The position numbers and the translations under genes were made by a program. The notes below the pieces were generated by a model. The model made no database searches and had not been told where the DNA came from. It was given only the letters and a program-made list of their open reading frames with translations. A stretch of 64,000 nucleotides of DNA from Rahnella sp. AA (GTDB lineage: Bacteria; Pseudomonadota; Gammaproteobacteria; Enterobacterales; Enterobacteriaceae). The stretch covers positions 124,001 to 188,000 of the forward strand of contig NZ_PITQ01000004.1 of assembly GCF_002834385.1 (NCBI RefSeq), read 5' to 3'. This document shows positions 1-61,329 of this stretch, piece after piece. Positions within the stretch are counted from its first letter, which is position 1. Every line of letters begins with the position of its first letter.

Positions 1-88
1 GTACGGCCAGCGCACCGAAGGCACAGCAGAGCAGACCCAGTGGCGCGAACAACTGGCACAACTGAGCCAGGAAGGCGTCGCCGCATGA
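1..88 (+). CDS. hemS: HemS/HmuS heme-degrading protein, C-terminal end only
   Basis: The second reading frame is open from the window edge and ends in TGA at 86-88, coding for a tail that includes [16 protein letters not shown]. This matches the C-terminal helix of HemS/HmuS-type cytoplasmic heme-handling proteins, which take heme from the HmuTUV importer. Only about 28 codons are present. Its stop overlaps the hmuT start (ATGA), as expected for the second-last to last part of an hmuRSTUV operon. The family assignment leans on the downstream genes, because so little of the protein is visible. Confidence 0.7.
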
Positions 89-915
89 AAACGTCTCTGA
101 AAGCGCTGATTGCCGCCGCGGCAATCTTGTCTGCCCCTATGCTCCACGCCGCAGAAAAGCTGGTCAGCATTGGTGGCGATGTGACCGAAATTGTCTATGC
201 CCTCGGCGCAGGCGATGAAATGGTGGCACGCGACAGCACCAGCCTGCATCCGCAGGCGGTTCTGAAACTGCCCGATGTCGGTTATATGCGCCAGCTCAAT
301 ACTGAAGGGATCCTGTCTATGCACCCTTCCATGGTGCTGAGCAGCGAGCTGGCAGAACCTTCACTGGTTTTACAGCAGCTGGCACAAAATGGTGTGAAAG
401 TCATCCGCGTGCCGGGAACGGCTTCTGTCGATACCGTACCTAAAAAGATCGAAGTGATTGCTGGCGCGCTCAATCGTCAGGCGGAAGGGGCAAAACTGAT
501 CGCCACTTACCGTGCTCAGCTTGAGGCCATTCATCACGATGCTTTACCGGTAAAAATCCTGTTTGTGATGAGCCACGGCGGAATGACGTCCATGGCGGCA
601 GGTCAGAATACGGCGGCTGACGCGATGATCACGTCCGTAGGGGCGAAAAATGCCATGCAGGGCTTCAGCCGTTATCGCCCTCTTTCGCAGGAAGGTGTAA
701 TCGCCAGCGCTCCGGACATTTTATTGCTGACCTCTGACGGCGTAAAAACGCTGGGCGGTATGGATCAGGTCTGGAAATTACCGGGGGTCGCCATGACGCC
801 GGCAGGTAAAAACAAGCGCGTTTTAGTGCTTGATGATATGTCCCTGCTGGGCTTTGGCCTGCAAACGCCGGTCGTAATGGCACAACTGCGTCAGGCGGCG
901 GAACAAGCGAAATGA
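85..915 (+). CDS. hmuT: Periplasmic heme-binding protein HmuT
   Basis: A 276-residue substrate-binding protein that would carry heme through the periplasm to the HmuUV permease. The first ~24 residues form a signal peptide (Lys near the start, Ala-rich core, cleavage after LHA). The rest fits the TroA/BtuF-like fold used for heme and siderophores ([14 protein letters not shown], then RDSTSLHP). An upstream in-frame ATG at 40 would bury the signal peptide behind an Arg-rich stretch, so the ATG at 85, coupled to the hemS stop by ATGA, is preferred. It overlaps hmuU by four bases, so the genes are co-translated. Transcription is presumably Fur-controlled from a promoter left of the window; that is inference. 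Confidence 0.93.
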
Positions 916-1940
916 GCAGCATGAGCTCCCCAATGCCGTCGCGACGCCGTTCTCCTGTCTGGGCGCTGATCGGCCTCGGTGGTGCTCTGTTGGTACTGGC
1001 TATTCTGGCAGCCAATACCGGCGCGATGGCGTTGTCACTGCATACCTTGTTAACGCGGCCTTTTGACGACGGATTATGGCAAATCTGGCTGACCGTTCGT
1101 CTGCCCCGCGTGCTGCTGGCCGTAGTGGTCGGTTGCGCGCTGGCCTGTTCCGGAGCCGTTATGCAGGGTTTATTCCGTAACCCGCTGGCGGATCCGGGTT
1201 TACTCGGGATCAGTAGCGGCGCGGCGCTGGCTGTGGCGCTGACTATTGTCATGCCGCTTTCGCTGCCGCCAATTCTGGCGCTCTACGGCCACATGATAAG
1301 TGCCTTTGCGGGGAGCCTGGCGATTTCGGCCATTGTCTTCGCGCTGAGCCGTTTCGGGCATGGCGGGTTGTCGCGTTTACTTCTCGCCGGGATTGCCATT
1401 AACGCCCTGTGCGGTGCAGCGGTTGGCGTGCTGACTTACGTCAGCGATGATCAGCAATTGCGACAGTTTTCGTTGTGGAGCATGGGCAGCCTCGGGCAGG
1501 CACAGTGGCCAACGCTGGCAGTTGCCGCGTCGTTAATTCTACCCGCCTGCGTGGCGACATTATTCATGGCGCGCCGCCTGAATATTTTACAGCTCGGTGA
1601 GGAAGATGCGCATTACCTTGGCGTTAACGTCCGCCGCACTCAGCTGCAATTATTGCTTCTGAGTGCATTGCTGGTGGGCGCTGCGGTTGCGGTTTCCGGT
1701 GTCATCGGTTTTATCGGCCTGGTCATTCCTCACCTGCTGCGCATCCGGCTGGGCGCGGATCATCGCTGGTTATTACCGGGTTCAGCCATGGCCGGAGCCT
1801 GCCTGTTATTGCTGGCCGACACGCTGGCAAGAACGCTGGTCGCACCGGCAGAAATGCCGGTGGGTCTGCTAACGAGTCTGCTGGGTGGTCCGTATTTCCT
1901 ATGGTTAATTTTACGTCCCGGGGTACCGCGCAATGTCTGA
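912..1940 (+). CDS. hmuU: Heme ABC transporter permease HmuU
   Basis: A 342-residue polytopic membrane protein of the FecCD family (the BtuC/FhuB type), expected to form the homodimeric channel for heme. It is strongly hydrophobic throughout. It carries family motifs such as [16 protein letters not shown] and [15 protein letters not shown] near residues 60-100, and [16 protein letters not shown] towards the C-terminus, which couples to the ATPase. It starts on ATGA overlapping the hmuT stop and runs 8 bases into hmuV. BtuC at 16655-17662 belongs to the same family but serves vitamin B12; position next to hmuT and hemS decides the substrate here. Confidence 0.93.
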
Positions 1941-50193: not shown

Positions 50194-50844
50194 TCAGTCG
50201 GCGTTTATAACCAATGAAATACCCCGGCCAGCAAAAAAACGGGCAAATGTCGCCACCGGCAGCGTGACATCTTGTTGGGTGGATACATCGTGGCCTGACG
50301 GGTTGTGGAAGGTTACAAATTGAGAATCCGCCCGGGTGACCAGCACCAGATGCCCACCTTTATGCGGCGGAACAGATTCGGGAAGACGAATAGAGGGATG
50401 AACAGACGCAATGAAAAACCGGTGTTGTTCAAGCTGTCTGGCAATATCCTCAGCAGAAATATCCACCCTAACCTGCGCGCTCAGCCCTAATTCCTCACGA
50501 ACATACTCGACAAAAGGGGCATAAATAAGCCCTTTAATATTTTCCCCCTCACGAATATATGCCCCATACAAGAGACTGCTCCGGGTGAGTTTCAGAATGG
50601 GCACAACCTTGCCTGAAACCGCTGCAAGCACCATTTTCAGACAGCACATGCCGCAAACATGGTTTGCCCATTCAACGAACTCCTGCTGAGTTGAGGCACC
50701 AGATTGTGGCCACAAAACGATATCACTGAGTTCAAGCTCACCGGCAATAATCCCTGCCGCGCACTCAGGGTCTTCCCACTGGCTGAAATAAGGTATTCCG
50801 GAAAAAGTTAGGGACGAACTTTGGCTAACAGACTTCACTGGCAT
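50194..50844 (-). CDS. C39-like cysteine peptidase family protein
   Basis: A 216-residue soluble protein without signal peptide. The pattern CGMCCLKMVLAA (Cys64) corresponds to the catalytic cysteine motif of Peptidase_C39_2-type papain-fold proteins; GGHLVLVTRAD (His165) and FHNPSGHD (Asn181) supply the remaining catalytic positions. Substrate unknown; no bacteriocin exporter or peptide precursor is nearby, so a role in toxin processing is not supported. It is single-standing, convergent with yebV, 94 bases after the ASCH gene on the same strand. Catalytic activity is inferred from motifs only. Confidence 0.75.
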   Translation of the reverse strand: MPVKSVSQSSSLTFSGIPYFSQWEDPECAAGIIAGELELSDIVLWPQSGASTQQEFVEWANHVCGMCCLKMVLAAVSGKVVPILKLTRSSLLYGAYIREGENIKGLIYAPFVEYVREELGLSAQVRVDISAEDIARQLEQHRFFIASVHPSIRLPESVPPHKGGHLVLVTRADSQFVTFHNPSGHDVSTQQDVTLPVATFARFFAGRGISLVINAD

Positions 50845-50938: not shown

Positions 50939-51331
50939 TTAGAATTTCTCTACCATTCTGAATTTCATAAGCAACAGCGGCATCGTCGGCTCAAACATAT
51001 CGTATTCCTCAAAGAAGCGTTGGTGTTCCTTACGCCAGTAAGCCAACGTCCGGTCACCCTCGCCTTCTTCCCATGCATGCTGTTCAGTAACCTGATCAAA
51101 AGGAACTTGTTTTACGTCGGTCAGTTGTACGGCGCATACCGGGTTATTGCGGCCATCGACCACCACAAAGATCTCTCCAGGCTCCGGTTCGGGGTCATCA
51201 TCAAGGTTTGAACAGGTGGCTGTTTTTGTGCCAGCAATCACGCGCTTAGCCAGTTCGTCTGCTGACGACTCAGTATCACCAAACGACCAGCGTTCTGCGT
51301 CCCTGTATTTAAGTGGGATCTGCGGAATCAT
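50939..51331 (-). CDS. ASCH-domain protein
   Basis: A 130-residue single-domain protein of the ASCH (PUA-like) superfamily. GTKTATCS at 34-41 is the characteristic Lys-containing loop, GEIFVVVDGRNNPVCAVQLT the central strands, and EGEGDRTLAYWRKEHQRFF the C-terminal signature of this subgroup. ASCH proteins bind RNA, and some members cleave RNA or modified nucleosides; this member's activity is unknown. A stem-loop (GGCCTGA/TCAGGCC, 50904-50926) follows the gene on its strand. Confidence 0.82.
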   Translation of the reverse strand: MIPQIPLKYRDAERWSFGDTESSADELAKRVIAGTKTATCSNLDDDPEPEPGEIFVVVDGRNNPVCAVQLTDVKQVPFDQVTEQHAWEEGEGDRTLAYWRKEHQRFFEEYDMFEPTMPLLLMKFRMVEKF

Positions 51332-51385: not shown

Positions 51386-51410
51386 AAAAAAACCCGCCGC
51401 AGCGGGTTTT
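51386..51410 (-). terminator. Terminator of the WG-repeat operon
   Basis: On the minus strand AAAACCCGC and GCGGGTTTT (9-bp stem, four-base loop) followed by further T. It lies 18 bases after the stop codon of the second WG-repeat gene. Confidence 0.85.
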
Positions 51411-51428: not shown

Positions 51429-54269
51429 TTATGATTTACAATTATCCGGCATGTTCAGGGGCCACTGCCTCACACTACCTGCACCATACAGGACAGTCGT
51501 GCCACATTCTTTATCAACCCGCGCAAGTGGCTTTCCGGCCCTGTCGATCATCATCGACATCACCGGTGTTGAAACCACTGCGACTCCGCTATCAAATGGC
51601 GAAACGGCGCTGAATACCGGGGAAATGGCAAAATTGCCCTGCACGTCGACAAAACCATAATGGCCATTCGTTTTAGCGAAAGCCAGGCCATCCACAGGCA
51701 AGCCTAAATCCGCATAAGAAATGCTGTCAGCCGGTTTCCCCTGCCCGTTGATCCAGGTTTTTGTACCATCAGTACGCGTCAGAACAGCATGATCGTTGAC
51801 CATACGGCTGGAATGTCCTTGCACAGTCAGAACCAGTTTTCCCGTATTGTCGACATAGCGCGTTGAAGGCTCATTATCCTGCGGATCGTAGGACAATGAC
51901 CATGCGCTGGCTGGTGGCATAACCCATTTTCCATCAGGCATTGCCGCAACACGCACACCTTTATCATCAATCAGCTCATAGCCTGCAGACGTCGACCTCA
52001 AAGCACGCCCCTGCTCAAATGCAGACCCTTGAGTTTCTGCAACTGGCTGAATCTGCCACTCAGCTTGTGCCGATAAGTAGCCTTCTTGCGGTCTACGGGA
52101 TAATTTTACCCAGTCACCAAGCGCAGTGATACGAGTCTGTTGCTCGTGTAACTCAATATTTCCTTTCCCATCCAGAAGCCAGGATTGCCCAGCAGCGGAC
52201 GAGGCCAAAATACGCCCGTCGCTGAATTGCGTCACAGACAAACCTGCGGTTGGTTCGATTCTTGCCTTCGCATCATTACCGACGATTTCAGCCAGAACGC
52301 CAGACTCCGGCTGTTCAGGTAGTGCAGGCTGCGTGAGTAACCACAGAGCGGTATTTATACGCTTAGCCTTAGCATATTTTGCCCCGAGCACTGTTTGCCC
52401 ATTACTGCCGAGCACCCCCCATATACCTTCCGTAGTCTGGAATGCAGCAACCCCATCAGCATAACTGCTGACATCCTGATAAGACGGCGGGATAATCGTT
52501 TTCTGGCTGATAACATCAAAGATACCCCACGGCGCACCTTCGGCTGCTGTTTCCCGGTAACGGAACCAACCATTACCCAAAGATTCAAGTTCGAACACGT
52601 TCGGTAAATCATAATGCTTACCCGCGTGATCAAGCGCGGTTAATTTCCCATCCAGATAATCAAGCGCATAGCCTTGTACAAAAGGTGAGATGTTATCTTC
52701 CGTGAGAGGAATAATAATTTTACCCTGCGCATCTACAACACCGGTTCCATCCGCGGTCTTTACAATAAATTGTTCTATATCGCTGCTGCTGTCTGCAGGT
52801 TCAATATCTTGCCATTTACTGTCCAGTTGAAGTGAACCATCTGGGCGCAGAAAACCAGCTCCGCTTCTGTTGCCCTCAGACCCCGGACGGATCAGGGCCA
52901 GAGGCGATAGTGCAGTAGCAGCTTCGCTGTTCACGTTCAGCGGCTCAATGCGGCCGCCATCCAGGGCACTGATATTCTTCTGGTTGAGTAATGCCTTTCC
53001 TGCGGCATCGACAATATTGATCACAGATCCTTGTTCGTTCCGCAGCCACAAACGATGGTTGATGACTTCAGCGTTGGCAATTTGTGCCAACCAACCCACA
53101 TTTTGCATACCACCGATCATCGCACCAGAAGGTGCCACGATCGCATTGACCTTTTTCTGCTCCCCTTTAGTGGTAACTAAAAAATCACCGGTATTCTGCT
53201 CCCAGGGCTCACTGCCCACAGGCAACATAAGAGGTTGTTTGCGTCCGGGGGCATAAAGGGCCAGCCCATCTTTCATCGCCGGATTCAAAACGTAATCGCC
53301 TGCAACGCGCAAATTGGCGGCATCAGAATCGCTGAACGTGGCGATGACAGCCGCCGCATTATCTAATAGCCTGATTCCATCTGCTGTCTTTGCCAGCCAA
53401 AAAGCCCCCGTTTCTTCACTCACAGCCAAATATTTCTGTTCATCCTGCATCCCGTCAGCACGGATTAATGTTATTCCTTCGGCGCTTTTCGCGAGAGCCA
53501 CAAACGGATTATGAGGATCTAGCGTGATGCTGGCGTATTGAGGCTGAAGTCGCCAGGTGAGATTACCGTCCACAATGCCGTATCCTTTACTGGCATCGAA
53601 AGCGATGAACAAGTCGTTTGCGCCGAATGGCTCAACAATTTCCATTTTATCTGTCGCCACATGACGAACACCATCAGGTGAAAGTAGCACACTGCTAAAC
53701 GACAAACGCAACCGCGCCGGAACGCCGTCACTCAGGGATGCGTCATCGACTAACGCATCAAGAGCTTTACCAACCTGAACACCTTTACGGTCAATAATTT
53801 GTGGTTTCCCACCCGCAACCACAACTGCCAATCCTGATTCGGTAAAAGGCTGTACGCTGTCAAAAGTGGGCTTAATCAGCCAGTTTCCTGCCTGATCAAT
53901 AAACCCCCACTTGCCTTGTTGCATGGCTGCGGCGACACCCGAGTGATAGTCACCGACTAGCTCAAAAGCAGGTTTAATAACGAGCTGCCCCTGATTATCC
54001 AGAAACCCCCAACGTTCACTTGTTGCGTCAGCGGCGGGTAAAAGCACAGCCGCACGACCTTCGTGAACATCGCGGATACATAAATTCTGAACAGCAGGCA
54101 ACGCATCACGCGCTTGCATACCGGCTTGTGAAGCAGGGCTCAGGGATGAACATCCGACAGGTTCAGCGGCCGCTGCAGAAACTGCCAGCGCCAGAAAGGC
54201 CAGTGTGCCACTGGCTGCCAGTGCACAACGCACTGCGTTGCGTAGCCCTGAAGGCTTGCTGACTATCAT
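51429..54269 (-). CDS. Exported WG-repeat protein B (946 residues)
   Basis: A very large secreted protein. Residues ~1-35 are a signal peptide (cleavage after AAA). The mature part holds many degenerate WG repeats of ~40-50 residues with pattern (W/Y)G(F/I)xDxxGxxxIxPxF: RWGFLDNQG, KWGFIDQAG, GYGIVDG, GTGVVDAQG, PWGIFD, IWGVLGSNG, YELIDDKG, HYGFVDVQG. Exactly four cysteines remain after cleavage: C40 and C64 before the repeats, C922 and C944 at the very end. WG repeats are thought to form beta-rich, propeller-like or solenoid ligand-binding structures; function unknown. The ATG at 54269 shares one base with the upstream stop (TGATG) and has a strong GGAGG six bases before it. Confidence 0.85.
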   Translation of the reverse strand: MIVSKPSGLRNAVRCALAASGTLAFLALAVSAAAAEPVGCSSLSPASQAGMQARDALPAVQNLCIRDVHEGRAAVLLPAADATSERWGFLDNQGQLVIKPAFELVGDYHSGVAAAMQQGKWGFIDQAGNWLIKPTFDSVQPFTESGLAVVVAGGKPQIIDRKGVQVGKALDALVDDASLSDGVPARLRLSFSSVLLSPDGVRHVATDKMEIVEPFGANDLFIAFDASKGYGIVDGNLTWRLQPQYASITLDPHNPFVALAKSAEGITLIRADGMQDEQKYLAVSEETGAFWLAKTADGIRLLDNAAAVIATFSDSDAANLRVAGDYVLNPAMKDGLALYAPGRKQPLMLPVGSEPWEQNTGDFLVTTKGEQKKVNAIVAPSGAMIGGMQNVGWLAQIANAEVINHRLWLRNEQGSVINIVDAAGKALLNQKNISALDGGRIEPLNVNSEAATALSPLALIRPGSEGNRSGAGFLRPDGSLQLDSKWQDIEPADSSSDIEQFIVKTADGTGVVDAQGKIIIPLTEDNISPFVQGYALDYLDGKLTALDHAGKHYDLPNVFELESLGNGWFRYRETAAEGAPWGIFDVISQKTIIPPSYQDVSSYADGVAAFQTTEGIWGVLGSNGQTVLGAKYAKAKRINTALWLLTQPALPEQPESGVLAEIVGNDAKARIEPTAGLSVTQFSDGRILASSAAGQSWLLDGKGNIELHEQQTRITALGDWVKLSRRPQEGYLSAQAEWQIQPVAETQGSAFEQGRALRSTSAGYELIDDKGVRVAAMPDGKWVMPPASAWSLSYDPQDNEPSTRYVDNTGKLVLTVQGHSSRMVNDHAVLTRTDGTKTWINGQGKPADSISYADLGLPVDGLAFAKTNGHYGFVDVQGNFAISPVFSAVSPFDSGVAVVSTPVMSMMIDRAGKPLARVDKECGTTVLYGAGSVRQWPLNMPDNCKS

Positions 54270-57028
54270 CAATTACCTCCGGTGCTACATGCAGGTGCGT
54301 TGGCAGGCCAAAGATAAGCGCCTTTGGCATCCACAATGACACGCTGATTACATCGCACCTGAATTCTTGCCTGAACGGTACCGTCAGCATTAAGTAAGCT
54401 CACTGCCCCTTTGCCACCGGCCCAGGCATGTTTTTCGCTAAAATCATCCGCCCAATCGAATTTAGGCAAAATTGCGAAACGCCCGGTGGTATTGATATAA
54501 CCCAGCAGGTTTCCATAAGTGGATTTTTTCATTGCAGTGGCAAGATTATTACTCATTGCTCCGACCTGATCGAAATAAGAACCGATAAGCGTTTTGCCCT
54601 GTTGATCAACGAAGCCATATAAGCCTTTGTTATCACGTATCGGAATGACACCCGAACTGGCTTTATTTGCCAGCAGACTATCAAGCCCCGCGAAACGGTG
54701 GACTTCATTACCGTCGTTGTCGTACAGCACAGTCTCGCCGGTTGCATCATCATTCATTGCCAGCCGGGCCAGAGAATAAAGTGGTTGTGCCTGTTCAAAA
54801 CCATCTAGCGGAACGGCACCCTGTTCATTGATCAGCGTAGTACGTCCATCGCTCACAGCACGACTCAGATTGAGTGGAGCGATAAAATTAAACTCAGCGG
54901 TATAAAGTGGCTGAATTTGCCAATCACCCTGATTATTAATCGCGCCAAAATGAGGTGAGAAACTGAGCATGACCCAATCACCTGATATCGAACTTGAGGA
55001 TGAAGTAATTTCCTTGCTGACAGGGAAACGTCCCGCACTGTCAAGCAACGCCACCCCACCTTCCGAAGGTTGAACCAGCCAATGATTTTTCCCCACGGAC
55101 TGAGGTCTGGATAGCAAATCAGTCGCTAATATTTGGCCACTTTTAGCGCTATAAAGGCTGTAGTGGCTGGCAAGGGCCCCACGTTCACCTGGCTGATCAT
55201 TATCAGAAAGCGAGAATACGCCCTGCCCTAAATACTGGAATTTTCCGCTACGGTCAGGATCAGGTGCTACTGCCCATGTACCATTGACACCGATAACCCC
55301 CCACCCCGCATCAGCTTTCGCTAATGCATATCCATCGTTGAAAGATTCGACTTGAGTAAACTGAGGTACAGCCTTAATACTTTTGCTGGCAATGTCCCAA
55401 AGCCCCCAACGCTGCGCTTCTTTTTCACCGTCGGTGTAATACAGTAATCCCGAAGACAATCGCTGAGCGTTTTGCGCGATATTTGCCGGAACATCCACAA
55501 TATTGCCGTGGCGGTCTATCAAACGTCTTGCCTGAGTATCCCCGGTATCGTCAACAGCCCAGGTATAATCGCCACTAAACGGACTGATTTGGCTGAATAC
55601 CGGCTGAATAATCCATTTCCCCGCCGCATCAACTGCACCCACTTTTTTATTTTCAGTGTGGATGAGAAGAGGTGCCTCGGTTGTATCCTCTTCAACCGAG
55701 GCCCATTGAGGATCCGAAAGCACATTACCTTGAGAAGTCAGAATTGCCGGCGGTTTTGCCGCATCACTGGAAGTCAGCACTGCCCATGGCAGAGTGCTTT
55801 CCGCATCGCCTGCATCTGGCAAGATAGTCACATCATCGGTCATGACCGTCGTATCTAATGGTTTTAGTTGGTAATCTTTCAGAGCTGCGAGTGTGGCATC
55901 GCTAAGTAGCGCAACGCCGTTGTTATCATAAATTTGCACAACCTGTGGAGTCTTGCCCTCTGTCTGCATAATCCAAAGACGGTTGCCCTGACGCAGAACC
56001 TGCGGCTTATTCACTTTCAGGGAAACAATCTGATTGTCTGCCCCGATGAGGAGAATACCCTTACTCCCCGTTGCCAGCGTAGCCTTACCCCAGATAAGGA
56101 TGTTCTCAGACTCATCGGGGGGAATATCTTGTACTTTTTCCAGCTTATTGTTGAGTAACTGTTTGCTGTTGTCACTGCCTGTAACCAGCCAGCTTCCGGA
56201 TGCCAGCGGACGTACAGATTTATACTGTTCCTTATTGAGTGAAACACCCTGGCGATCAACAAATACCCAGACATTTTTTGTTTTCACCGCAACAACATCA
56301 CCACTGAGCTGTGGTTCATCTCGGGTTTTCAAGACCATCGGGTCAATATCCCAGGAACCATTTTCGTCCAGATACCCCCAGTATCCCTCATCAGCAGAAT
56401 CACGTTTCTTGGCTGGAATAAGCCCTGACTGAGGCAAATCAATGGTCATGACATCATCAGGTAAAGAAAGAGAACGGTTGGTAGCAGCATTCCACAGTGC
56501 CGGAGGCACCTGTGTCTGGACACTGGCCAGAGCCTTCCCCCTCACAAAGCCACTGCTATCAAGAGAAACGGCAAAAGGCAGCGTTTTAATCACAGCGCCT
56601 TTGCGATCAATCAGCGCCAGACGATTGTCTGTAACGACTAAAGCAGTGCCTTGGGCATTGAAATCTGTTGCACGGGTGAAGCGAGGTTCAATGACCCAGC
56701 TCCCTTTTTTATCGATATAACCGAACTGGCCGCCTTTTTTAGCGGCAGCCAGATCGTTGGCAAAACCTCGAACCTCACTGAAATCAGGTTTGATCGCCAT
56801 ATGCCCGGATATGTCTACATAACCCCATAAAGGCTCGCGGGAAAGCCCAACCAGGATGGGGGAAAGCCCTTGCTGGAAAGGCAACTGGCAATCTTTCGCC
56901 GTTTTTACATTGCTACATGCCCGTAACAGCGAGTCGTCCGCATGTACCGGCAAACTAAAAATAGCATTCAGAACCAGGGGTAATACACTGAAATTTCTGA
57001 CATATTTAAATTTTTCGGAGCAATTCAT
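54269..57028 (-). CDS. Exported WG-repeat protein A (919 residues)
   Basis: First gene of the WG-repeat pair. Signal peptide 1-30 (cleavage after VHA) and about ten WG units: LWGYVDISG, QFGYIDKKG, YWGYLDENG, VFVDRQG, KVGAVDAAG, RWGLWD, GWGVIGVNG, HFGAINNQG, LYGFVDQQG, LLGYINTTG. Mature cysteines are only C38, C47, C893 and C914, the same placement as in protein B. Parallel segments (GDWVMLS with GDWVKLS, WQIQP in both, and the C-terminal GAYLWPANAPAC with GSVRQWPLNMPDNC) show that the genes arose by tandem duplication. AAGGG lies seven bases upstream of the ATG. Function not recognised. Confidence 0.85.
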   Translation of the reverse strand: MNCSEKFKYVRNFSVLPLVLNAIFSLPVHADDSLLRACSNVKTAKDCQLPFQQGLSPILVGLSREPLWGYVDISGHMAIKPDFSEVRGFANDLAAAKKGGQFGYIDKKGSWVIEPRFTRATDFNAQGTALVVTDNRLALIDRKGAVIKTLPFAVSLDSSGFVRGKALASVQTQVPPALWNAATNRSLSLPDDVMTIDLPQSGLIPAKKRDSADEGYWGYLDENGSWDIDPMVLKTRDEPQLSGDVVAVKTKNVWVFVDRQGVSLNKEQYKSVRPLASGSWLVTGSDNSKQLLNNKLEKVQDIPPDESENILIWGKATLATGSKGILLIGADNQIVSLKVNKPQVLRQGNRLWIMQTEGKTPQVVQIYDNNGVALLSDATLAALKDYQLKPLDTTVMTDDVTILPDAGDAESTLPWAVLTSSDAAKPPAILTSQGNVLSDPQWASVEEDTTEAPLLIHTENKKVGAVDAAGKWIIQPVFSQISPFSGDYTWAVDDTGDTQARRLIDRHGNIVDVPANIAQNAQRLSSGLLYYTDGEKEAQRWGLWDIASKSIKAVPQFTQVESFNDGYALAKADAGWGVIGVNGTWAVAPDPDRSGKFQYLGQGVFSLSDNDQPGERGALASHYSLYSAKSGQILATDLLSRPQSVGKNHWLVQPSEGGVALLDSAGRFPVSKEITSSSSSISGDWVMLSFSPHFGAINNQGDWQIQPLYTAEFNFIAPLNLSRAVSDGRTTLINEQGAVPLDGFEQAQPLYSLARLAMNDDATGETVLYDNDGNEVHRFAGLDSLLANKASSGVIPIRDNKGLYGFVDQQGKTLIGSYFDQVGAMSNNLATAMKKSTYGNLLGYINTTGRFAILPKFDWADDFSEKHAWAGGKGAVSLLNADGTVQARIQVRCNQRVIVDAKGAYLWPANAPACSTGGN

Positions 57029-57542
57029 CCGATGCCCTTATAACTGGATAAAATAAGAAAGTGTAGCGCACGCTTTTTTTCATCACCCGCAAAAGGGCGC
57101 GTGAGACGGTAAAAATCCGATAATAATCAATTTCAAGCAAGCATACATACCATATGCCTATAGGGTGTCAGCTTGCGAAAGAAAAAGCAGCTAATTTATT
57201 ACTCTGTAACGAATGAATACACTTATTAAATGCAGAGAAAGATAATCTCAACATGTTACCATCGGATTTAATTTCCCACCTGCTGTTAACCTCATAACAA
57301 CACTCACGCTTTTCTTCTAAAAATCAGACCATTTTCTTTTACATATGCAAACGTGGTGAATAATTAACCTTCAGAAGATTCTTACAATATTTGATTAAAG
57401 TCATTATTCCCCCAGCTTTACTCTGGTTTTATAGCTTAAAGGACGTTGTGTGACCAAAATCACTCCCGGTCTGGGTGACGTAAAACCTGGCAGTGTTCGG
57501 TTGCCGCGTATTTCAGGTGCTTTATCTTATTTGGGGAAAGTC
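57029..57542. other. Intergenic region upstream of the WG-repeat operon and the DUF1883 gene
   Basis: 514 bases, AT-rich, holding divergent promoters. The frame of the DUF1883 gene is open upstream to an ATG-like GTG at 57450, but the family start is at 57543. No recognised operator, RNA or repeat was found. Confidence 0.5.
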
Positions 57543-60799: not shown

Positions 60800-61329
60800 T
60801 TCGTTTTCCTCATTATGTGGCGGAAGCTCAACGGTACAACGGTAGCATAAAAGCTGCAAATGAGAATGAAACTCTTTAACAATCAAATGTAACAGGATGG
60901 TGGAAACTTAAATTTCCGCAGATGTGCAAATATCAAGGTGTGAACGCACGCGTCAATCCAGATCACCTGAATCCTTCGGCTCAACTCAATGGGGGTAGAA
61001 AGCCTAAATAGGGGATATTGAGGGTAAGTGGAAATGTTTTAAATGGTTGATTCAGTAGTAACTTATTGATTTAAAAAACAGGTAAAAAAAAGACCGAATA
61101 CGATTCCTATATTCGGTCTAGGGAAATGGCTCTTGGGAGAGAGCCGTGCGCTAAAAGTTGGCATTAATGCAGGCGGTTAAGCCGTACAACTTAAAGAGTA
61201 GCTGACGTGTGGCTATTTTCCACCCAACCTGAAACATAGTGATAATAACAATGATGTATTATTCTCACCGTGTGACAACATGCACAAAACATGGGTTTAA
61301 CATCAGCTATTTGCCAATGGCACGGCGAT
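60800..61329. other. Intergenic region between adhP and yebY containing the sdsR locus
   Basis: 530 bases. The adhP-proximal part (60800-61080) shows no gene. The rest carries sdsR on the minus strand and, by analogy with E. coli, the antisense RyeA/SraC RNA on the plus strand. Confidence 0.6.
61084..61187 (-). ncRNA. sdsR: SdsR (RyeB) small RNA
   Basis: On the minus strand the segment GCCTGCATTAATGCCAACTT, then TTAGCGCACGGCTCTCTCCC, AAGAGCCATTTCCCT and the terminator GACCGAATA...TATTCGGTC with T8 match E. coli SdsR almost base for base as I recall it. The 5' end (~61187) is placed by aligning the E. coli start. A weak sigma-S-like -10 (CTACTCT) lies at plus-strand 61196-61202. SdsR is a stationary-phase, Hfq-bound RNA that represses ompD, mutS, tolC and others. 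Its position just upstream of yebY is also conserved. Confidence 0.93.

Follow-up and report, generated by a model that had tools for sequence, protein, structure and literature searches.

Our analysis reports on a pair of adjacent genes, A and B, which encode paralogous WG-repeat proteins with an invariant frame of four cysteines and which probably make up one two-part machine. By comparing the pair from Rahnella sp. AA, found in a 64,000-nucleotide window (the whole stretch of DNA analysed) of a 5.85 Mb genome, with its relatives, we find that the two genes overlap at stop and start, occur together at every locus recovered, and carry two cysteines near each end of the encoded chain. Structure prediction suggests for both proteins a β-propeller fold in which the two ends of the chain probably meet. 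WG-repeat proteins are known; what is new is the paired arrangement and the terminal cysteine frame. We propose that A and B are the halves of one exported binding scaffold whose rings are closed covalently at a seam, a reading which as a whole we put at slightly less than an even chance.

The features of the locus are collected in Table 1. The first-pass annotation of this DNA was right about the coordinates, the minus strand and the protein lengths, and its one-base overlap behind a GGAGG site is confirmed at 54271-54267, with the A stop TGA at 54271-54269 and the B start ATG at 54269-54267. The terminator that it placed at the end of the pair corresponds to a terminator-like stem after B, from a consensus scan that returned 9 sites in the region against 6.3 expected from shuffles; no sigma-70-like site was found by consensus scan upstream of A. 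A non-coding block of about 65 bp, with a 40-bp core present once in the window, lies between A and a divergent DUF1883-like gene; it aligns in the Rahnella, g41 and g131 rows of the locus alignment and not in the g64 or g119 rows (g41, g64, g119 and g131 being the four other enteric genera that carry the pair), and it is a possible control region of either gene.

Table 1. Positions of the gene pair and associated features within the window.
Feature	Position	Strand	Remarks
Gene A; WG repeats behind an apparent signal peptide	54269..57028	-	919 aa; ~22 predicted blades; Cys 38/47/893/914; orthologue in 30/30 loci
Gene B; paralogue of A, WG repeats behind an apparent signal peptide	51429..54269	-	946 aa; ~23 predicted blades; Cys 40/64/922/944; orthologue in 30/30 loci
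Coupling junction: GGAGG, then A stop TGA sharing one base with B start ATG	54267..54280	-
Terminator-like stem, 9 pairs and T run, end of A-B unit	51389..51410	-	consensus scan
Conserved non-coding block, 128-192 bp upstream of A	57156..57220	-	alignment of locus rows
C39-like gene	50194..50844	-	small protein
ASCH gene	50939..51331	-
Small RNAs SraC/RyeA and SdsR/RyeB	61081..61226	+ and -	overlapping antisense

The WG-repeat nature of both proteins, as first annotated, is borne out by Pfam WG_beta_rep (PF14903), which matches A at E 1.1e-43 (147.3 bits) and B at E 3.3e-41 (139.4 bits) against a cut-off of 25.6. Eight separate copies of the ~35-residue repeat exceed the cut-off genome-wide, five in A and three in B, and the remaining blades of the two proteins are degenerate. 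A and B are paralogues, 25% identical over nearly their whole length (E 3e-47). The shared segments GDWV (683 in A, 718 in B) and WQIQP (703 and 738) each occur once per protein and in the same order, as had been noted; the third, a final WP.N.P..C, holds exactly in B only, the corresponding WPANAPAC of A being shorter by one residue ahead of the cysteine. Both proteins begin with a hydrophobic stretch and an A-x-A-like site, read by eye, which suggests export. Profile searches with Pfam and NCBIfam found no enzyme domain in either protein, and no NCBIfam family matches A or B. LptA appeared as a relative when the sequence of B alone was searched against solved structures, at E 0.06-0.1, and was taken as a chance match.

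The comparison rests on 30 distinct loci: 14 from Rahnella, 15 from the four other enteric genera (six g41, one g64, four g119 and four g131, with Ewingella strain E4 counted with g41 on identity alone) and one from a distant gammaproteobacterium of another order, G616. A precedes B with overlapping stop and start at all 30, the overlap being 1 nt in the 14 Rahnella loci and 4 nt in the 16 others, with GTG instead of ATG as the B start codon in G616; a locus with only A or only B was not found among them. The closest relatives of A in the named collection are from Rahnella species, and named carriers include Ewingella americana (60%) and Edaphovirga cremea (51-52%); the G616 proteins are 28.6% (A) and 33.7% (B) identical to ours. 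A search of 39 relatives recovered the pair in every one of the 14 Rahnella genomes, among them that of the window, with one weak match outside the genus. Across 392 genomes of the family, 26 match A, six of these through short WG matches only and 20 with the full pair (6 Rahnella, 5 g41, 1 g64, 4 g119, 4 g131); B is present in each of the 20 genomes with full-length A, which answers the co-occurrence check that the first-pass annotation had proposed.

Wider searches returned little more. Seven of 369 genomes of the class match at E 1e-8, five through short WG matches and just two, the window's own and G616, with the pair; 54 genomes of the order of G616 gave a pair match in G616 only; a thinner draw of 295 genomes from the window's order matched in Rahnella and g41 only, with no g64, g119 or g131 match; and among 299 genomes of the phylum only the window's own matched. 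No megablast match was found in 20,395 E. coli records. A plasmid-borne pair was rejected, since tblastn gave only partial WG matches, all below 80% query coverage, in 15 plasmid records for A and 12 for B; a phage-borne pair was rejected likewise, the two phage records found with B covering 8-9% of it. The pair is rare in the genomes searched, a statement about these collections that does not prove absence elsewhere.

A tree of 24 rows, both genes from 12 of the 30 loci, separates A and B into two clades with 100/100 support. Each clade holds its own G616 member and the genus-level branching is the same inside both, although both G616 branches are long and some rows have an unusual letter make-up, which leaves the exact place of G616 unsure. 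The simplest history suggested by this tree is one duplication, after which A and B may have been kept or passed on as a unit. Within Rahnella the median dN/dS is 0.059 for A and 0.070 for B (n = 13; rough values, with dS near saturation), which points to purifying selection on both genes.

The neighbours of the pair are a gene that we take to be rsmF, a PAS-GGDEF protein (DGC), a gene that is presumably yebV, a small protein with a weak Peptidase_C39_2 match (22.5 bits against a cut-off of 24), an ASCH gene, B, A, the DUF1883-like gene and an M20 peptidase. All of these from the DGC to the M20 peptidase stand together in 14 of 14 Rahnella genomes, and rsmF belongs to the same neighbourhood wherever the fetched stretch extends to it. 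Because the pair occupies the same place in all 14, the locus looks like conserved chromosome and not an island; the description of the surroundings as accessory genes is not upheld. In each of the 29 enteric pair loci the ASCH gene is the next one downstream of B. A functional link between it and the pair was considered and rejected as positional: ASCH relatives of 59-67% identity occur in eight genomes of other genera (G093, G048, G068, G106, G045, G061, G054, G115), none of them in the match lists for the pair, and in G616 no ASCH gene follows B. A second ASCH match, 40% identical, lies elsewhere in the window's genome (G000:C33). The C39-like gene, which stands beside ASCH in Rahnella, g119 and g131, was rejected as a linked gene in the same way, as neither the six g41 loci nor the g64 locus showed it. 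Further along the window are the small RNAs SraC/RyeA and SdsR/RyeB, both above the Rfam gathering score.

A constant feature of the pair is its cysteine frame. Apart from Cys3 of A and Cys15 of B, which lie inside the apparent signal peptides, the cysteines of each protein are those given in Table 1, four per mature chain with two near each end, at the positions first annotated. All four columns are kept in 30/30 A and 30/30 B proteins, and from the first framed cysteine on there are exactly four in 30/30 A and 28/30 B, the B exceptions being G010 with one extra (584) and G616 with two. The latter, at residues 474 and 476 of that protein (locus L126), form an internal C-x-C pair seen in no other of the 30 B proteins. 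These counts are not independent, many rows being close relatives and 14 of the 30 loci coming from one genus, and we place the weight on G616, g64, g119 and g131; judged from the alignments, the conservation is more than chance. The spacing of the N-terminal cysteines is 9 in 30/30 A and 23-25 in B; that of the C-terminal pair is 21 in 29/30 A (25 in G616) and 22 in 30/30 B, and a glycine stands ten residues before the first C-terminal cysteine in 60/60 proteins.

This terminal frame is absent from the seven other WG proteins examined. Three enteric ones of 702-704 aa (in G016, G270 and G207) have cysteines only near the N-terminus, and one of 697 aa in G088 has Cys 102, 107, 210 and 642; a Bacteroidales protein has eight scattered cysteines, a Bernardetia protein Cys 12 and 24, and a Calothrix protein none. 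At this size, 697-704 aa, the single WG proteins of other enteric genera (g4, g62 and g76; loci L052, L090, L091 and L092) lack the frame, and the one in L092 has scattered cysteines.

The best AlphaFold2 models have a mean pLDDT of 82.1 and pTM of 0.66 for A, and 81.9 and 0.63 for B; the other four models of each protein have a mean pLDDT of 71.7-80.6. Blade counts read by eye from DSSP strings are about 22 for A and 23 for B. Among the 50 Foldseek matches listed for each protein (E 7e-15 to 1e-9), many of the top PDB entries are multi-propeller proteins (megalin, DDB1, IFT-A, PorZ), with query TM of only 0.08-0.16; such low values would be expected from agreement in single rings without agreement in how the rings are placed, and the placing of the propellers is unsure. 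A three-ring architecture like that of DDB1, which is among the Foldseek matches of both proteins, is one candidate arrangement. With VIA-align the best match of A has Z 14.0 over 315 aligned residues (4.7 Å, model 37..884), and that of B, eIF2A, has Z 15.6 over 313 (4.3 Å, model 69..926); the single-ring matches of both are 8- and 9-bladed propellers. The β-propeller fold is thus a prediction from AlphaFold2 and VIA-align over ~315 residues, not a solved structure.

In all 50 VIA-align matches listed for A the aligned range starts at 3-155 and ends at 863-919, and in 48 of the 50 listed for B it starts at 37-136 and ends at 875-946, where a range gives the first and last aligned residues only; the two other B matches are to sortilin (521..928 and 530..712). 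About 310 residues are aligned in the best matches and some 540 lie outside. Since the rings of 8-9 blades that match best among solved structures align from chain end to chain end, both ends of each chain probably build one such ring, with the rest inserted. The models of A and B resemble multi-blade β-propellers of the same predicted kind, as comes out of the structure prediction that had been called for. Of the outcomes that the first-pass annotation had named as counting against it, none was seen: cysteines are not scattered, no loss of a single gene turned up among the 30 loci, and the folds look related.

To place the cysteines within a blade we built a WG blade model (consensus WGYIDAQGKWVIQPVFDQVGDFSNGYALAVKDG) from 333 repeat sequences of A and B; its strong matches, 7 in A and 5 in B, are all training units and give no independent support. 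The invariant glycine corresponds to Gly 8 of the model, which puts C893 and C922 at position 18, where strands c and d join. Model positions 19-29 are matched by residues 65-75 of B, so that C64 would also fall at position 18, and by the same spacing C47 of A does so in our own reading. The local alignments behind this register are weak, at most 7.2 bits for the pieces from the window, and the C-terminal piece of the distant A, that of G616, takes a one-residue insertion under the model. The cysteine positions would agree with a disulfide between the first and last blades. Four-bladed propellers are described as often having a disulfide from the N- to the C-terminal blade, and larger ones as using a Velcro strand (PMC8458387). 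If the register is right, the inner cysteines stand where the chain of an unbroken ring would be continuous, and because they share one blade position we predict ring-closing disulfides, C47-C893 in A and C64-C922 in B, in place of local ones. The earlier proposal of disulfide-locked ends on a long β structure stands as to the fixed cysteine frame; the models look like closed β-propellers and not like a single long β structure, and bonds from N- to C-terminus may replace the local locks.

The strongest competitor to this closure, which we consider plausible if somewhat doubtful, is that the cysteines form local staples, C38-C47 and C893-C914 in A and C40-C64 and C922-C944 in B, which tie down end caps while the rings close by strand pairing alone and their ends stay unbonded; this is the first-pass proposal transferred to the propeller fold. 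There are always two cysteines per end; the nine-residue N-terminal spacing of A never varies and falls in a modelled helix-turn-helix; and the C-terminal spacings are almost equally constant. Joining the two ends in a seam-fusion test did not favor the joined seam, which scored a mean of 0.87 bits in A and 3.68 in B against a training median of 48.1. In A, shifts of -3 to +1 are equally good and +7 and +8 are better (1.92 and 2.96) by reaching the next blade; in B the register is barely singled out, at 3.68 against 3.44 bits for shifts of -1 to -3. Shuffles scored as high as the window's A seam in 245 of 500 cases, and the window's B seam beat 500 of 500. Against local staples stand the differing N-terminal spacings of A and B, the common blade position of inner N- and C-terminal cysteines in both proteins, and the models, which place both ends in one ring.

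Our structural predictions, coupled with the gene arrangement, suggest a model in which A and B are halves of one exported, probably periplasmic, binding scaffold. The 22-23 four-stranded WG blades of each chain would form several β-propellers; one ring of 8-9 blades would be closed by the first and last blades, with the ~540 residues in the middle forming the other propeller or propellers, broadly as in DDB1. The inner cysteines would make the Velcro closure of the ring seam covalent, and the outer ones may add a second staple, C38-C914 in A and C40-C944 in B, although C40 lies in a stretch with pLDDT below 50. One coupled message would yield A and B, most likely assembling with each other, and the assembly would act by holding a partner, be it a protein, a glycan or another envelope component. 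The heteromeric pair that the first-pass annotation had suggested is plausible. We propose a holding role because no enzyme domain was found in either protein; holding partners is common among large propellers, and genes that are coupled and never separated frequently act together. No gene for such a partner was found, and a two-part envelope scaffold is our best guess at the role of the pair. A bolder version, which we regard as unlikely, makes the pair an obligate exported heteromer of ~45 blades in which two cross-terminal disulfides zip the ends of each chain into a large ring, a covalent Velcro that the other WG proteins examined lack, and in which the oxidation state of the seam governs how the pair assembles or acts in the envelope.

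That A and B are independent single-protein binders, held together by operon structure and not as partners in a complex, seems to us somewhat unlikely. Their divergence to 25% identity would suit such a division, and coupling by itself only balances amounts; yet they are never apart in 30 loci, one of them in another order, and the duplication would be older than the split of that order, as far as the long G616 branches allow. We think it more improbable still that the proteins are surface-exposed or released, in the manner of adhesins or effectors, and not periplasmic. Their median dN within Rahnella (0.109 for A, 0.132 for B) would speak for exposure when set beside the DGC (0.019) and ASCH (0.018) genes, and A and B also evolve faster than M20 by this measure; however, the nearby C39-like gene (0.146) and rsmF (0.089) are about as fast, dN/dS is low, and no secretion gene is among the identified conserved neighbours. 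Binding of metal or haem by the cysteines in place of disulfides is very improbable: it would account for invariant cysteines near the chain ends, and the haem-d1 propellers NirN, NirS and NirF are among the lower fold matches, but the spacings (9, 23-25 and 21-25) are not those of CxxC or CxxCH, and enteric proteins encounter the Dsb system on export.

Sequence databases contain many WG-repeat proteins, but little has been described of them. The open-licence literature, most subscription papers being outside its scope, gave no function for a WG pair and mentioned bacterial WG or KWG proteins only in passing: PF14903 is one row in a table of contact-based repeat models (PMC8078820), a KWG protein serves as a Pseudomonas marker (PMC5350142), a WG lipoprotein is among RsmA-affected genes (PMC8855297), and 40% of commensal Acidovorax have a WG Pfam (PMC8767351). 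With its linked genes and invariant cysteine frame, the pair offers a clean handle for a first functional study: there are two genes in a non-listed host, the point mutants to make are defined, and the biochemical predictions are clear. Should the seam be correct, the pair would show how very large envelope propellers are closed and stabilised.

A comparison with known systems highlights both the family likeness of A and B and their peculiarity. They score far above the cut-off of the WG_beta_rep family, and differ from the seven other WG proteins in their terminal four-cysteine frame. With DDB1 and other multi-propeller scaffolds they share the predicted arrangement of many blades in one chain forming several propellers, and DDB1 entries make up much of the Foldseek list for B and part of that for A; however, the query TM is only 0.10-0.15, and DDB1 is a eukaryotic, intracellular protein without such terminal cysteines. 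The nine-bladed propellers of eIF2A and eIF3b and the eight-bladed one of DPP4 are among the best single-ring matches to the end-spanning ring, at Z of about 11-16, whereas their identity is 3-10%, their functions are unrelated, and they have no large insertion of further propellers. Disulfide-closed four-bladed propellers, which we take to be those of the hemopexin type, join the N- and C-terminal blades as we predict for A and B; unlike these, A and B are predicted to have rings of 8-9 blades, two cysteine pairs and inserted propellers, and their closing bond is itself a prediction.
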